Origin: a virus
Strand: one strand, 5' to 3'
Virus record (IMG/VR): IMGVR_UViG_3300018080_000267
Coordinates: 1 to 45,226 of that record
DNA: 45,226 nt
The position numbers and the translations under genes are program-made. This document shows positions 33,163-40,889 of this stretch, in pieces. How positions within the stretch are numbered: position 1 is the stretch's first letter; each line of letters begins with the position of its first letter. The notes beneath the pieces were generated by a model. It saw only the letters and a program-made list of their open reading frames with translations, made no database searches and had not been told where the DNA came from.

Positions 33163-34245
33163 TTATAATATTTTTCTTAGCTTATTGATAAAATATTCTA
33201 CATCATGAGACCTATATTCGCCCCAATGACTAATTCTTAAATAATCCTGACCATCACTAGGTCTCCCCAAAGCTTCCATTAAAGGAGACCCGCCGGAATA
33301 TAAAGAACCACAAGCGCTTCCCAGCCCACAATATATCCCGTCATTTCCAAGTAAATTCAATAATCTAAATGCATCTCCATCTTTTGGTGTCTTAGCATAT
33401 GTTGTATTAGGACAACGATTTGCATTTTCTCCAATAATATCAAATCCTAATGTTTTTAATTCTGGCTCTAATACATCTCTAAACTCAATCATATTCGCGT
33501 AACGCTCATCAAAAGTATTTATTGCTTCTTCTAACGCCACCGCAGAAGATGCTATGCCTGCTGTATTAGGTGTTCCAGAAATATCTCTAAAATACCTTGA
33601 ACCTACTCCAAACTCTCTCCAAACACTAGAATCTGATAAATACATAAATCCAACACCACCAGGACCACCAAACTTGTGCGCTCCAAACACAGCTATGTCT
33701 GGATTTAACTTGCTTATATCCACTTTAATCTTTCCCAATGATTGAGACATATCCGTAAAAATATAATTATCATTTGTACTATTTATATTTTGAATTGTTC
33801 CGATTTCATTTTGCATATGAATACATACAATATTTTTGGCACTTTCAAATAATACCTCGCCATCAGAGTTTACTTTCAGCTTTTTTATAAGTACCGAGTC
33901 AAACGCTGCATCTACAGCCGTATTTATAGCGGGATGTTCTATAGGAGATATAAAAACCTCATCATCCCCAGACATACGTACCATATGAGCTAATAATTGC
34001 GCCCCCCATTCACAAGCCTGGGTACATCCACTAGTAAAAACAATTTGATTAGGATCTTTCGCATTAATCAATTTAGCTATTTTAGATCTTGCCTCTTCAA
34101 TAGCGTTTTGTGCAGCACGACCAGTCGCTGACGGAGATAACGGATGTCCATGACCAGCAATAGAATCATTAAACTTATGATAAAAATCCATTACATGATG
34201 ACTCATTGGTAAATGAGCGTTAGCATCTAAAAATAATTCTTTCAT
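33163..34245 (-). CDS. Cysteine desulfurase (NifS/IscS-type, PLP-dependent)
   Basis: The 360-residue enzyme would take sulfur from L-cysteine as a persulfide and pass it to an acceptor. All key residues are readable: the N-terminal FLDANAH, the PLP-stacking His104 (SPIEHPA), Asn146 in NEIGT, Asp165 and Gln168 (TDMSQS), the PLP lysine Lys191 in GAHKFGGPGGVGF, and the SGTPNTAG substrate loop. The active-site Cys312 is in GLGSACGS, and an Arg lies in LRISHWG. The sequence therefore looks active. It is placed among fibre and neck genes and next to an HNH protein. No scaffold protein or sulfur-modification genes are visible here. Possible uses are Fe-S cluster supply, tRNA thiolation or DNA phosphorothioation. 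Confidence 0.9.
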   Translation of the reverse strand: MKELFLDANAHLPMSHHVMDFYHKFNDSIAGHGHPLSPSATGRAAQNAIEEARSKIAKLINAKDPNQIVFTSGCTQACEWGAQLLAHMVRMSGDDEVFISPIEHPAINTAVDAAFDSVLIKKLKVNSDGEVLFESAKNIVCIHMQNEIGTIQNINSTNDNYIFTDMSQSLGKIKVDISKLNPDIAVFGAHKFGGPGGVGFMYLSDSSVWREFGVGSRYFRDISGTPNTAGIASSAVALEEAINTFDERYANMIEFRDVLEPELKTLGFDIIGENANRCPNTTYAKTPKDGDAFRLLNLLGNDGIYCGLGSACGSLYSGGSPLMEALGRPSDGQDYLRISHWGEYRSHDVEYFINKLRKIL

Positions 34246-34485: not shown

Positions 34486-35562
34486 TTACGGAACAATTGC
34501 GCCAGTAGTATCTACCCAAGCTGCCCCATTCCATCTCAGCATCATACCATTTCCAATATCAGTGGCAAAAAATTCAAACCCTAATGGTAAGTTTGTTGTC
34601 GGTCGCTGATCTGGACCCGCCGTAGTTCCAGACATAGTAATTCCAGACCATAATTGCACAACAGTTCCAAGAACACTCCAATTAGCCCAAGGGGTTGCAC
34701 CCATACTTTCAATAGCAACATTTCCAATCATTAGAAACGTTCCCACCGCAGCATCTACTGGAACTCCAGTTATACCAGAAAATGACGTTAAATTTTGAAG
34801 ATTTGCAACGCTGCCATTTGTAAGTCTAATACCATCCTGACCGTCTATTGTCCCATCTATACACAAAAACATAGACGCATCACACAACATCGCTAAACCC
34901 GTAACATTTGCGCTTAATGATGCGCCAAGATTTGACATAAAAAAACTACCATTAGAAGCATGAACAACCACATCAGCATCTCCACCTGCACCACCAGCAA
35001 GCCACCCAAACCCTGCGCCATCTAACATTACCGCAGTTCCTCCACCAGGCGAATCAAAAGCAGCCCAAATAGCAATTACCATCATATTTGGGGGAAGATT
35101 ATCACCGTGTAAAACATATGCGCCGTTTGTTGCTTCTCCGTGACAATATAATATAAATGATTCATTATTTACGCCCGGATTCGGCAATCCATCATCTACA
35201 ATTTTAATGGCACTATCTGTAGCATTTACAGACGTAGATATTACAGATAAACCATTAATTGCCGAACTAACATAAGGCATAACGAGTGTCGCCCCACTAG
35301 ATGAAGAAATTGTCGTTGTATCTGATAATCCAACACCATCAAAAGATGTTAATGTTATATGTCGTCTTAATACAACATTTTCATTATAAGTCCCTGGAGA
35401 AATTTTTATAACATATTTATTATTCGCAGCCTCATCTGAAAATGACGCCAAGGCCTCATTAATCGTAGAATAATCACCAGTACCATTTTGCGATACAACA
35501 ATTACATTTGCATCATATGTGTTTCCTGGACTGCCGATAATTGAACCACCAAAACTAGACAT
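34486..35562 (-). CDS. Beta-helix tail fibre/spike (358 aa)
   Basis: After a 6-residue start (MSSFGG) shared with the gene upstream, residues 18-75 read VVSQNGTGDYSTINEALASF and KYVIKISPGTYNENVVLRRH. This is the classic entry of pectin-lyase/pectinesterase-like beta-helices. Hydrophobic, Ala/Gly-rich rungs follow to about residue 290, and the C-terminus (PLGFEFFATDIGNGMMLRWN) is a small fibre-end module. It probably forms a trimeric short fibre. No catalytic Asp pair was assigned. SD AGGGA is present. Confidence 0.7.
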   Translation of the reverse strand: MSSFGGSIIGSPGNTYDANVIVVSQNGTGDYSTINEALASFSDEAANNKYVIKISPGTYNENVVLRRHITLTSFDGVGLSDTTTISSSSGATLVMPYVSSAINGLSVISTSVNATDSAIKIVDDGLPNPGVNNESFILYCHGEATNGAYVLHGDNLPPNMMVIAIWAAFDSPGGGTAVMLDGAGFGWLAGGAGGDADVVVHASNGSFFMSNLGASLSANVTGLAMLCDASMFLCIDGTIDGQDGIRLTNGSVANLQNLTSFSGITGVPVDAAVGTFLMIGNVAIESMGATPWANWSVLGTVVQLWSGITMSGTTAGPDQRPTTNLPLGFEFFATDIGNGMMLRWNGAAWVDTTGAIVP

Positions 35563-36392: not shown

Positions 36393-36480
36393 CGCGGAAT
36401 GGATACCATTCCGCGGGAGGATAGGGCTATATCCTTTGAATTATCAAGAAGCTCCCGCCTTTAGGCGGGAAAGTAGTCAC
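36393..36480 (+). ncRNA. Omega-RNA / IS200-IS605 right-end-like structured element (no TnpB present)
   Basis: In the 201-nt gap after the methyltransferase gene, the plus strand has a perfect hairpin CGCGGAATGG-ATA-CCATTCCGCG (36393-36415), then GGATA...TATCC. This is followed by TTGAATTATCAAGAAGC, a stem TCCCGCC-TTTA-GGCGGGA (36453-36470) and the end AAGTAGTCAC. From memory, 'CAAGAAGC + GC-rich TTTA-loop stem + ...GTCAC' is typical of the 3' end of TnpB guide RNAs and transposon right ends. GCGGGAG (36413-36419) can also pair with CTCCCGC (36452-36458), a possible pseudoknot. It lies opposite to all genes and its end overlaps the methyltransferase stop. Alternatively it is simply a minus-strand terminator. 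Confidence 0.45.
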
Positions 36481-38582
36481 TTATTGTTTATAAACATGTA
36501 TATACTCTCATATTTTTGCATACCAGCAGATTTGCTCAAATGACTCCTTATTGTTCGCAAATAAATTTCCTCACGAACATTTCCAAATATATCTATTGCC
36601 ATATTTAACATTCTGGGGTAATTCTTAACATTCAAGCCAAACCATTTTCCAGGCTTTAACATATACTTTACATTTTCAAGCGTCTTTTTCCAATATACAT
36701 CATAAAAATAATTTTCCCCACGATTATATGCTTGAGACAAATCATCAGAATAATATTCTTGATTAAAATATGGCGGACTACTCCAATATAAATCAATAGA
36801 ATTTTCTTTATCGCAATAGTCCTCAGAACCAGACTGTATTAGTTTATAATCTTTAAAATTAAAATACCTTGCCATTTCCTCTAATTCAACCACAGTAAGA
36901 GGATCCGTTCCAATATATTTTCTACCACATGACATTGCCCCTAATAATCTAGCCCCATAACCACAAGAATAATCACCAACAACATCGCCGGGATTAGAGT
37001 ATTTTAAACATACAAATTTTGCAATAGATGGTTTGAACATAGTAATGCTAGGAACCAACCTCATACTACGCATACCTTGTATCATCATTCTGTGACTAAT
37101 ATTAAAAGTTTCGTTTACTTTAGAATGCCAATTAATAACAAGCCGATTTTTTACTAATTTCAATAAAATATTATCATCTTTCCATAATTCAACCATATTT
37201 TTTTTGCCAGGCTCGGTAGCGTGACAAAAACTCTTACAAAAATGTTTACATATACTTGTTGCTGTAGAACTATTATTAAACAATTCATTTGTTGCTATAT
37301 CCGGATTATAATCGCACAATTTCTTATAATCAGAATTTAATTTTTTATCAGGATATTCGGGATACATCCAACCTTGTTGCCTAAAATGATTAAATAGCGG
37401 TTGAACATATTTTTCCCTATCTTCTTTTGGTAGTGGTTTTATAAGCCCAGCTGTTATCGGAATACCATCTACTTCTACTATTTTTGTATATGGATTGTCA
37501 TTTTTTCTTTTTATCCTTTTTACTGTAGCAGCGCTTACATTATATTGTTTAGAAATATTTTCTATATTATTATTTTGATTTAAATTGTTTATAATATCAT
37601 GTTTAATACTTTCTGGTATATTATATTTTTTACGACCTATTTGTCTGTTTTCTTGCTGTTTTTTAAGTACAAGGTATTTACTATATTTTCTATCTAACCT
37701 TGTTTCTAATGATGAGTTTCTATATAACCAATTCATAATAAGATCCACTTTTTCATTGCCATTAGATTCCATATCAAAAGTATTATTACCAGTTTTAGAA
37801 ATACAATAAAAATTTACAATAATATTCAACTTATCTAATATTAATCTTTGTATTTTTTCACACATCTCTTCAGTAGACGTTAATGACCACTTCCACTCTT
37901 TAGTTTGCTGCCTCATAGTAATACAGCCATCACCATCAAATAACCCTCTAATAAAATGGTTGTTTAAATCTTTACGCAACCATTTTGGAAATTCTATAAT
38001 AAAACTTTTAGCCTGTGGACATCCCTTTTCTTCCAACATATCACACATATGTTTACTATACATTCTTATACAACATGTCGGATATCTATTATTGCTTAAA
38101 TATCTTTTAATGTTTTGTTTTGGCATATTAATAAAACTACAAAATTTTACTAAATGATTATAATCTTCATCCTTTAATGTTAAATGTGCCGTATTTGTTC
38201 TTTTACAATTATAGGCATCAGCATAAAGAAAACCAAGCCAATATGCTTTTTGTGGTGTGTTTATATTATCAAAAATATCTTCATTAAAAAAAGTAAATCT
38301 ATGACTTTCATTTCTATTTCTTAATATTTCTTTTTCTTTTGCCCACTTTTGTATTCTACGTTTATCAATTGAATATTTTTTTCCTAAATTTTTGGCTGAT
38401 ACACCCAGTTCATATAATTCAAGTATTTTTTCTATTTTTGAATCATTAAATTGTTCTTTTTTTATAGAATAATTGTTTTGTTTTATTGTTTTTATAATTT
38501 GTCTATGGTCTTCTTCTAAATTAATAGCTATTCTCTTAGCTGAAAATCCGTTTTCTGTCATTTCTTTTATTTTATTTTGCAT
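36477..38582 (-). CDS. HTH-LAGLIDADG homing endonuclease fused to DNA methyltransferase
   Basis: The 701-residue protein has two N-terminal helix-turn-helix-like units (about residues 1-85) and a LAGLIDADG endonuclease domain. Its two motifs are AYWLGFLYADA (113-123) and FIRGLFDGDGCI (210-221). A third HTH (about 322-361) precedes a methyltransferase domain from about 370. The methyltransferase shows the AdoMet motif GDYSCGYGARLLGA (536-549) and the catalytic SSPPYF (601-606), the N4-cytosine/N6-adenine type. The C-terminus is ordinary. It is not intein-like: no N-terminal Cys/Ser or terminal His-Asn is seen at the junction. SD AAAGGTTC precedes the ATG. Selfish endonuclease joined with a DNA-modifying enzyme is unusual; the methylated base is unknown. 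Confidence 0.82.
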   Translation of the reverse strand: MQNKIKEMTENGFSAKRIAINLEEDHRQIIKTIKQNNYSIKKEQFNDSKIEKILELYELGVSAKNLGKKYSIDKRRIQKWAKEKEILRNRNESHRFTFFNEDIFDNINTPQKAYWLGFLYADAYNCKRTNTAHLTLKDEDYNHLVKFCSFINMPKQNIKRYLSNNRYPTCCIRMYSKHMCDMLEEKGCPQAKSFIIEFPKWLRKDLNNHFIRGLFDGDGCITMRQQTKEWKWSLTSTEEMCEKIQRLILDKLNIIVNFYCISKTGNNTFDMESNGNEKVDLIMNWLYRNSSLETRLDRKYSKYLVLKKQQENRQIGRKKYNIPESIKHDIINNLNQNNNIENISKQYNVSAATVKRIKRKNDNPYTKIVEVDGIPITAGLIKPLPKEDREKYVQPLFNHFRQQGWMYPEYPDKKLNSDYKKLCDYNPDIATNELFNNSSTATSICKHFCKSFCHATEPGKKNMVELWKDDNILLKLVKNRLVINWHSKVNETFNISHRMMIQGMRSMRLVPSITMFKPSIAKFVCLKYSNPGDVVGDYSCGYGARLLGAMSCGRKYIGTDPLTVVELEEMARYFNFKDYKLIQSGSEDYCDKENSIDLYWSSPPYFNQEYYSDDLSQAYNRGENYFYDVYWKKTLENVKYMLKPGKWFGLNVKNYPRMLNMAIDIFGNVREEIYLRTIRSHLSKSAGMQKYESIYMFINNK

Positions 38583-38703: not shown

Positions 38704-39489
38704 TTATGCGCCAATTACAACGCTCTTATTACCGCGAGCGACACCGCGTGGATTCACAATTCCAAGACCAATAATTTCACTTACCACCCATCCTAATTTT
38801 AGCTGCTTAGGCTCGTCAGCGGGAAGTACCTCAATGTCCTGACGAACAGGCATCACACCAACAAACTCTGGGTCTGCACATGCGTAAACGGTACCAGCAG
38901 GAACAATCTTAGAAACAAGAATGTCTGCGCCCCAAACATGAGCATAAAGACCAGTCTGTAGAATCTCGCGCTGAGTCACAGGATCAACCTCACCACCATT
39001 AGCACCAGCACCACCGCCAGCTGCCCAGTTTAGAATATCGGTGAACTCATTGATGTTCATGAAAAACTTTGTGGTTACCAAGTCCCAACGATCTACCTGA
39101 ACCTTTAGTTCAACTAGGTCGCGCTTTAGCATTCCACCATCAGCAATATCTTGAGCAACGTTCTCGACAGTAGCAGCAGCATCTAGAGCGGCAAATACAT
39201 TTGCATCCTCTTGAGCCATAATTTCCTGCCTTGCCTTTTGAACGGCACGGTCAATCACGTTAAACCGACGTCTTTTAACTTCAGCAATACGAACGGTTGG
39301 ATTGGAGTAAAGCTCGAACTCGGGAACGGTTACACGATCACCGAATACGCGACTCTCAGGACCAGAGCCATTGCTTGAAACAACAACTGCAGCCACATCG
39401 ATATCGCGGTCATAAACTGGTAGGGCTCCTTGAGGAAGGGGATCAACCACGAGGGCACGTCTAGCAATTCCCTGATAATCAAGGTTTCG
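38704..39489 (-). CDS. Major capsid protein, exon 2 (codons 76-336)
   Basis: After splicing, the capsid frame continues as R-N-L-D-Y-Q-G-I-A-R and encodes 261 residues to a TAA. The exons join ...MANPIR to RNLDYQGIARRALVVDPLPQ, a continuous sequence I recognise as the conserved start region of an HK97-fold MCP group. Further family signatures are GALPVYDRDIDVAAVVV and SNPTVRIAEVKRRRFNVIDR. The mature protein is 336 residues. An apparent ATG at 39492 is a by-product of the intron's last bases (ATG ends the intron). Base composition is visibly less AT-rich than that of the endonuclease, consistent with a highly expressed virion gene. Followed by a strong terminator. Confidence 0.88.
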   Translation of the reverse strand, partial: RNLDYQGIARRALVVDPLPQGALPVYDRDIDVAAVVVSSNGSGPESRVFGDRVTVPEFELYSNPTVRIAEVKRRRFNVIDRAVQKARQEIMAQEDANVFAALDAAATVENVAQDIADGGMLKRDLVELKVQVDRWDLVTTKFFMNINEFTDILNWAAGGGAGANGGEVDPVTQREILQTGLYAHVWGADILVSKIVPAGTVYACADPEFVGVMPVRQDIEVLPADEPKQLKLGWVVSEIIGLGIVNPRGVARGNKSVVIGA

Positions 39490-40664
39490 CATTTGTTACA
39501 GGTCAGGGAACCTGGTTAGGTCATTTCTGCCTAACTCCTTATATTACTATAAGGGTCGGACTCTATCTTCTCCAATTTTGGAGTTTAGCATATTAGTCTC
39601 TGAGGATTCAGGCATAATTTTATATTTCATACTATCTATTACATGAGGCCTAATAATATCTGAAAGTTTTTGAGTATTTTTTTTATTTAAAGTAAGTTGA
39701 AAATATTCTTTTTCTTTAAATTTAAACCCCATAACTTTAGATCTTAAATCAAAACACCTTTTTAATAGATTTTGTAGTTTTATATTTTCTTCATATGTAA
39801 AGCCCATTGTCGCTATTCTCATATTTATTCCTGAATTTAGATTTCCGTCATCACAAATCCAAACTGCTAGTGCCAATGGAGTCATGTATATATCTAAATT
39901 GTCTGGAATATGTTTAATTCTTTGATTATCGTAAAACATGTCGGCAAATGAATTTAAGCCTTGATGACATATTGTTGCGGTCTGTAGCATTATAGAATTT
40001 TTTCTTTTATCTATATTTTCTCTCCATGCATTAACAAAAGGATCTAACATTGATATTTTCCAATGAAAATATTGTTTTTGTTTTTTGCAATGTCCAAAAG
40101 ATAGCTTATATAAAGAATTTTTGCCATCTCTATATAAACATCCATCTCCTAATAACATTCCAACTAAAATTTGTTTTTGAACATAATTTATAGGAATTGC
40201 TCTGAGATGATTATATCTTCTAGCCGAAGAGTCTGGAATTCTATTATTTGCTCTTAACAATCTTGATATAGCCGGAGCAGATATTTCGAACCATTTTGCT
40301 ATTTCTTTTATAGATTGTCCAGAATCAAACATTGATATAGCTTTTTTGACTTGATCATTTGTAAAATCAGATATGTATTTCTTCCTCCATTGGACTTTAT
40401 TTTTTAAATTTTTTCTTACATATTCATATGAAACATTATGTTTTGCAGCAATGTCTCGAATATTAAGTCCAAGTTTATATTCTTTTATTAAAACATCTAA
40501 TTTTACTGTCATGCCTGTCTTTCCTGCTGATTTTCTGTATCATTCTAACTCTGTTACTATAACGTGTTTTAAATTATCTACAGTGATTAATTTCTTGAGT
40601 GTTATAGTAGTTAGACATTCAGAGGTTCCAGCATATAGCTAAATTTTACATCCGCCGAAAATTA
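39490..40664 (-). ncRNA. Group I self-splicing intron in the major capsid gene
   Basis: The 1175-nt intron lies between exon bases ...CCTATCCGT and CGAAACC.... P1 is exon ATCCGT with intron GCGGAT, ending in the required U-G pair at the 5' splice site. P10 is intron TTTCG with exon CGAAA. The last intron base is G (omega-G). Near the 3' end the coding strand shows TCAGAGACTA (R-like, P7 5' side), the P8 hairpin CTCCAA-AA-TTGGAG (39583-39570) and AAGATAGAGTCC (S-like, P7 3' side). CAGGCAT at 40517-40511 can pair with ATGCCTG at 39615-39609, closing the loop that holds the endonuclease gene. All these elements are directly visible. Confidence 0.9.
39547..40512 (-). CDS. Intron-encoded LAGLIDADG homing endonuclease
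   Basis: The 321-residue protein has two N-terminal HTH-like segments (about residues 5-45 and 50-90: SIKEIAKWFEISAPAISRLL) and a two-motif LAGLIDADG domain: ILVGMLLGDGC (115-125) and LALAVWICDDG (213-223). Two motifs in one chain mean it can act as a monomer. It is expected to cut intron-less capsid genes at the splice junction and so spread the intron. The ATG lies inside a helix of the intron that closes the coding loop, and the C-terminal codons run through P8 and the P7 3' side up to the TAG. The gene is more AT-rich than the exons. SD CAGGAAAG precedes the ATG. Confidence 0.88.
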   Translation of the reverse strand: MTVKLDVLIKEYKLGLNIRDIAAKHNVSYEYVRKNLKNKVQWRKKYISDFTNDQVKKAISMFDSGQSIKEIAKWFEISAPAISRLLRANNRIPDSSARRYNHLRAIPINYVQKQILVGMLLGDGCLYRDGKNSLYKLSFGHCKKQKQYFHWKISMLDPFVNAWRENIDKRKNSIMLQTATICHQGLNSFADMFYDNQRIKHIPDNLDIYMTPLALAVWICDDGNLNSGINMRIATMGFTYEENIKLQNLLKRCFDLRSKVMGFKFKEKEYFQLTLNKKNTQKLSDIIRPHVIDSMKYKIMPESSETNMLNSKIGEDRVRPL

Positions 40665-40889
40665 ACGGATAGGATTGGCCATCGCTTGAGCAAGAGCAAT
40701 CTTGCCATCATGACTCATAATAGCGCGAGAGATCAGCTCATCCCGCTTGTCATCAGAAAGGCCCTGACCACTAAGAGCAGTATTAGAAGGCTGATTTTCC
40801 TCTAATACTGAAGCATACTTAGAAATGGTCTGAAGAGCATCTTGCAAACTCGATGCATTAAGCTCTCCCTGTGTATTAAACATATTCAT
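40665..40889 (-). CDS. Major capsid protein, exon 1 (codons 1-75)
   Basis: The first 75 codons start MNMFNTQGELNASSLQDALQ with SD AGGAG before the ATG at 40889. The sequence (SRAIMSHDGKIALAQAMANP) is the N-terminal arm region of the MCP. In unspliced RNA it ends at a TAA that is the first intron triplet, giving a 75-residue fragment. Splicing after T40665 restores the frame into exon 2. The gene follows a terminator and the decoration-protein gene. The two exons together make a 336-residue HK97-fold capsid protein. Confidence 0.88.

Follow-up and report, generated by a model that had tools for sequence, protein, structure and literature searches.

A predicted mobile group I intron in a phage major capsid protein gene, with related introns at a dozen sites of the same gene

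Genes of DNA metabolism are the usual hosts of phage introns (PMC12908238). In the mycobacteriophage LittleE, however, an intron with a LAGLIDADG open reading frame (ORF) interrupts the major capsid protein (MCP) gene, as proven by RT-PCR and N-terminal sequencing (PMC3706429). The same paper cites a group I intron in the capsid gene of the lactococcal phage Tuc2009. In the Jug huge phages, essential genes (terL, nrdD, DNA polymerase) are interrupted by group I introns or by inserted endonucleases, and some of the splicing is backed by transcript reads (PMC12363816). Further, an intron endonuclease of the jumbo phage PhiPA3 acts in competition between co-infecting phages (PMC11620839).

We analyzed the 45,226-nt IMG/VR virus record IMGVR_UViG_3300018080_000267 (hereafter, the window), in which an intron interrupts an MCP gene. 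The LittleE intron resembles that of the window in that it is likely group I, resides in a gene for an HK97-type MCP, carries a putative LAGLIDADG ORF, follows an exon ending in U and itself ends in G. In contrast, it is 819 nt long, its I-CreI-related ORF lies on the opposite strand, its host belongs to another MCP family, and it occupies a single site in one phage. The Tuc2009 intron, which we liken by its description in the citing paper, is similar in being a group I intron of a phage capsid gene and differs in belonging to a lactococcal phage. The Jug introns are distributed over many host genes and are mostly short (mean, ~206 nt), and the accessible text names terL, nrdD and polymerase, not the MCP (PMC12363816); the PhiPA3 system involves another host gene and another phage lineage (PMC11620839). 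The initial annotation regarded an MCP host gene as unusual. Such hosts are indeed uncommon, but LittleE and Tuc2009 provide precedents, and the MCP is a rare, not a new, host of group I introns. The interest lies in what the sequences present as a radiation within the same gene around the window intron. This hotspot pattern appears to be unreported in the open-access literature searched (most subscription papers fell outside its scope), which held no account of an MCP intron hotspot or of the introns of this clade.

Table 1. Features of the interrupted MCP gene in the window, and related MCP genes with three resolved introns (intron sites in nt of the MCP coding sequence)
Feature	Position	Strand	Remarks
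MCP exon 1 (residues 1-75)	40665..40889	-	225 nt; aligned with intronless MCPs; terminal sequence CCTATCCGT
MCP exon 2 (residues 76-336)	38704..39489	-	786 nt; aligned with intronless MCPs
Group I intron, 1175 nt	39490..40664	-	exact junctions; covarying core; held-out model match, 104.8 bits
P1 5' strand TATCCGT (exon side)	40665..40671	-	pairs with guide sequence
Internal guide sequence GCGGATG (P1 3' strand)	40649..40655	-	covaries with exon between sites
P10 strand TTTCG	40656..40660	-	pairs with exon 2 CGAAA (39489..39485)
P3 5' strand TTTAGC	40638..40643	-	pairs with 39589..39584; compensatory changes over 19 introns
P4 5' strand GCTGG	40628..40632	-	pairs with TCAGC 40530..40526; paired in 19/19 introns, invariant
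P6/P6a 5' strands AGGA, CAGGCAT	40511..40525	-	pair with TCCT 39606..39603 and ATGCCTG 39615..39609; ORF in loop
LAGLIDADG homing endonuclease, 321 aa, N-terminal helix-turn-helix	39547..40512	-	PF03161, E 2e-34; motifs LVGMLLGDG and LAVWICDDG intact
P7, P3 3' strand, P8, J8/7	39559..39598	-	P7 GACT 39598..39595 : AGTC 39562..39559; P3 39589..39584; P8 39583..39570
P9, P9.1, P9.2 hairpins	39499..39554	-	compensatory changes in 18/20 pairs, sister introns
Terminal (omega) G, 3' splice site	39490..39490	-	junction reading and covariance model end
MCP gene of L082			introns at 209/221/277
MCP gene of L107			introns at 209/258/277
MCP gene of L117			introns at 221/277/737
MCP gene of L156			introns at 221/263/277
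MCP gene of L180			introns at 209/277/486

The initial annotation placed an intron in the MCP gene with splice sites exact to the base. When the two exons were joined at these sites, a stop-free, in-frame MCP of 336 aa was obtained (Table 1). The best 80 homologues of the joined MCP in IMG/VR were all uninterrupted, were 80-87% identical and crossed the junction without a gap, as expected if joining restores the capsid sequence ANPIR-RNLDYQG. The joined protein matched phrog_2522 (major head protein; E 1e-78) and the phage G capsid protein Gp27 (PDB 6wkk; E 4e-97, residues 44-327). By these comparisons, the host gene product is an HK97-type MCP, homologous over the whole protein including the junction, and the intron break falls within one of its most conserved stretches. 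A search for the MCP in the genome contig collection returned a single remote match (25%). Downstream of the capsid gene, we noted a Class-V aminotransferase and a pectinesterase-like ORF (window 33163-34245 and 34486-35562, minus strand).

P1 consisted of seven pairs (TATCCGT:GCGGATG) with U.G at the 5' splice site; the pairing itself had been recognized in the initial annotation, but as six pairs. The five pairs of P10 (CGAAA:TTTCG) and the terminal G were present as annotated. Among shuffled intron heads, a P1 of seven pairs arose in 0.96%, and a P1 of at least six together with a P10 of at least five in 0.01%. P1 was 4-8 pairs long among the 40 MCP introns scored, for which U.G at the splice site was a search requirement. 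The mean number of P1 pairs was 6.3 with an intron's own exon versus 2.7 with the exons of other sites, and the corresponding values for P10 were 4.4 and 1.8. Thus, the guide is refitted from one site to the next. The first codon of the window intron is an in-frame TAA (40664-40662), and in 39 of the 40 MCP introns an in-frame stop follows the 5' splice site by no more than about nine codons. Such early stops would keep ribosomes out of the intron core.

Inspection of the intron revealed a conserved P3-P8 core with R and S elements and the P3/P7 pseudoknot; R, P8 and S lie near the 3' end where they had been annotated, as does J8/7. P7 comprises four invariant pairs. A covarying fifth pair was visible by eye in sister introns; in the window this position is a non-standard A against G, and four pairs remain. 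P7.1/P7.2, the criterion for group IA, are absent, with the P7 5' strand and the P3 3' strand just 5 nt apart, and the core is likely non-IA and probably IB. The P6 pairing was taken from an alignment of 19 cores, and P6a was read by eye, its strands pairing as CAGGCAT/ATGCCTG, CTGGCA/TGCCAG or CAGACA/TGTCTG.

The Rfam model RF00028 detected no group I match in the window at the gathering score or at E up to 10, probably because the 950-nt ORF splits the core; ORF-less sister introns in the same MCP gene scored 72-82 bits. Rfam matches to snoRNA and miRNA families in the window were below their gathering scores and were dismissed as chance. From 17 sister introns, holding out the window intron and its two same-site relatives, we constructed a covariance model that covers the 3' half (P7, P8, P9, P9.1, P9.2). 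With this model, the window contained a single significant match (104.8 bits, E 4.8e-22), which ended exactly at 39490. The group I assignment of the initial annotation thus fell below threshold with Rfam but was recovered by the sister-built model, which also agreed with the annotated 3' splice site.

A whole-intron MAFFT alignment of 39 cores contained too many gaps in P1/P2 and in outlying sequences, and we therefore used the chosen 19-core subset and the window-free 3' half. In the 17-sequence alignment, from which the window was excluded, changes on both sides were found in 23 of 29 pairs, a number reached in 0 of 500 shuffles, and sliding the strands by one base reduced the paired cells from 96% to 33-37%. 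RNAalifold folded the 19 ORF-trimmed cores at -61 kcal/mol (z -35 versus shuffled columns) and recovered P1, P3, P4, P5, P6, P8 and P9 with extensions. Compensatory changes in the 19 cores occurred in P1, P3, P5, P8, P9, P9.1 and P9.2; this set includes P1, the exon side of which is fixed by the host gene, and the introns were partly chosen for P1.

The endonuclease ORF resides in the P6 loop, with its start codon in the P6a arm and its 3' end crossing P7/P3/P8 into P9. The LAGLIDADG_2 domain (PF03161) scored 119.5 bits versus a cut-off of 25, with both acidic motifs (GDG, DDG) present. The dN/dS ratio was ~0.14-0.25 versus three relatives, with dS near saturation. By these measures, the ORF is intact and evolves under purifying selection. 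The first five relatives of the endonuclease to be found (57-66% identity) were all located within the same MCP gene, and intronless (empty) MCP alleles occur in relatives alongside occupied ones. A separate 701-aa ORF just downstream of the MCP gene (window 36477-38582, minus strand), which combines an N-terminal endonuclease-like region (phrog_4645, LAGLIDADG_3) with a resolvase-type helix-turn-helix, is possibly a free-standing homing endonuclease.

Considering the junctions, the covarying core, the intact endonuclease and the occupied and empty alleles, we regard the element with high confidence as a mobile group I intron that would be spliced to yield the MCP message. In the predicted pathway, the transcribed RNA would fold, and the guide GCGGATG would pair with the last bases of exon 1 and place U.G at the cut. 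Guanosine would attack after the U and free exon 1, which would in turn attack after the terminal G, assisted by P10, to join the exons into the MCP message. Because the intron opens with TAA, translation of unspliced RNA would stop after 75 aa. The LAGLIDADG protein would cleave the empty MCP genes of co-infecting relatives close to the site of insertion, and the intron would be copied in when the cut gene is repaired. We infer splicing in vivo, the cleavage specificity, homing and an effect on particle yield from these sequences, and a dependence of particle production on splicing would follow from the gene structure.

Three other explanations were weighed. A dead intron or an inserted endonuclease gene may have broken this MCP copy, with the phage using another copy or being defective. 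The window is very likely a fragment, because related MCP contigs reach several hundred kb, and a second, uninterrupted MCP could lie elsewhere in the genome; the non-standard fifth P7 pair points in the same direction. However, a single MCP was found within the 45-kb window, and no second copy there. The ribozyme (P1, P10, core and terminal G) is intact and fitted to the exact site, the exons are undamaged and conserved, and the endonuclease has been maintained by purifying selection, all of which make inactivity very unlikely.

The capsid protein might instead be made as two separate polypeptides, since an in-frame ATG (39492..39490) directly precedes exon 2 and opens an ORF at 38704..39492. 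We consider this barely plausible: no ribosome-binding site was seen by eye upstream of that ATG, most sister introns end without an in-frame ATG, and the break interrupts a stretch of the MCP that is among its most conserved. Further, genes with exons of 12, 14, 16 or 19 nt cannot be produced piecewise. An equally slight chance was assigned to an intein, translational bypass or another insertion that does not involve RNA splicing. Inteins also carry LAGLIDADG endonucleases, but the in-frame stop at the very first intron codon leaves no continuous reading frame, which refutes an intein, and explanations of this kind do not account for the covarying group I core or the P1/P10 match. Thus, a spliced, mobile group I intron is the reading that we retain.

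The initial annotation overlooked that the window intron is one of many relatives at about a dozen sites of the same gene. A scan for the P3-P4 motif returned 36 stretches, mostly in the MCP. Using the reading frame, P1 and the terminal U and G to place the junctions, we resolved 46 introns (40 without near-copies) at 12 sites of the MCP coding sequence, namely nt 209, 219, 221, 225 (the window), 228, 258, 263, 277, 292, 486, 494 and 737, of which 258, 263, 292, 486 and 494 each rest on a single gene. Nine of the 12 sites fall within 84 nt, which was matched by 0 of 20,000 random placements, and, taken together, the sites are located in conserved regions of the protein (p 0.001 for residues, 0.006 for bases).

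Up to three introns were resolved per gene (Table 1). The shortest exons between introns measured 12 nt (L082), 14 nt (L156), 15 nt (L099), 16 nt (L101) and 19 nt (L107); in the three-intron gene of L082 (1783-4542), the 12-nt micro-exon GGCAAATCCCAT separates introns one and two. The first two introns (sites 221 and 277) of L104, L115 and L117 were recovered from three assemblies made separately, which is evidence against an assembly artefact. In a distant MCP family (26-47% identity in pieces), six model-positive cores lie between seven consecutive MCP exon pieces (L231 2680-7390 on contig G015; also G016 and G017), again in three separately assembled contigs. Just downstream of one interrupted MCP gene, we observed a remnant of a second MCP-like C-terminus (L081 4927-5109; 57% over residues 275-334).

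When MCP genes were collected with a conserved MCP peptide, a probe not chosen for introns, at least 80 loci were obtained, of which 62 were intact, 10 interrupted and 8 too partial to classify; the interrupted share was ~14% of the classifiable genes among the matches listed. The covariance model matched interrupted loci, and nothing exceeded 27.5 bits in 600 kb around 80 intact MCPs. In five intron-bearing jumbo-phage contigs (139-394 kb, 1.4 Mb in total), all nine model matches were MCP introns, and no match to the model was found in seven intron-free contigs. In the L117 contig, RF00028 detected one further intron away from the MCP gene, and more distant cousin introns occur outside the MCP in other phages. 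The restriction to the MCP holds for this intron lineage in these five contigs only.

In the endonuclease tree, site labels were strongly clustered (10 changes versus a shuffled mean of 19.2; 0 of 200 shuffles as low), and the three site-225 endonucleases, including that of the window, formed one clade (97/90). Some endonucleases grouped with those of other sites: that of L114 (site 277) was nested in the 221/219 group (95/93), that of L180 at site 209 grouped with site-228 proteins (100/100), and those of L180 at 277 and 486 of the same gene were sisters (97/95). The tree is most simply read as showing introns that home at one fixed site and occasionally relocate to another close by in that gene. 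Alternatively, recombination may have mixed cores and ORFs. Closely related introns and endonucleases occupy nt 221 and 225, exactly 4 nt apart. The cleavage overhang of LAGLIDADG enzymes is 4 nt long, and a correspondence with this offset is only suggestive.

On balance, we consider it likely that the MCP gene of a phage-G-like jumbo clade is the resident niche of one mobile group I lineage. This lineage would have radiated inside the gene as its endonuclease moved and P1/P10 were refitted between sites separated by anything from a few to hundreds of bases, leaving single genes with as many as three introns (six in the distant family) and with micro-exons of 12-19 nt. Such a multi-intron, micro-exon gene is reminiscent of mitochondrial cox1. 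The MCP usually ranks with the phage proteins made in the largest amounts, so each particle would rely on ribozymes that splice efficiently; some messages would have to be spliced three to six times, and across exons as short as 12-19 nt. Further, the capsid genes of such phages will be annotated as fragments. Occupied and empty alleles, related introns at a dozen sites of one gene and endonucleases with relatives 4 to several hundred bases apart would make the clade a natural experiment on the movement of introns from site to site, on homing as a form of competition among jumbo phages that infect the same cell, and on the price that a structural gene pays for being spliced.
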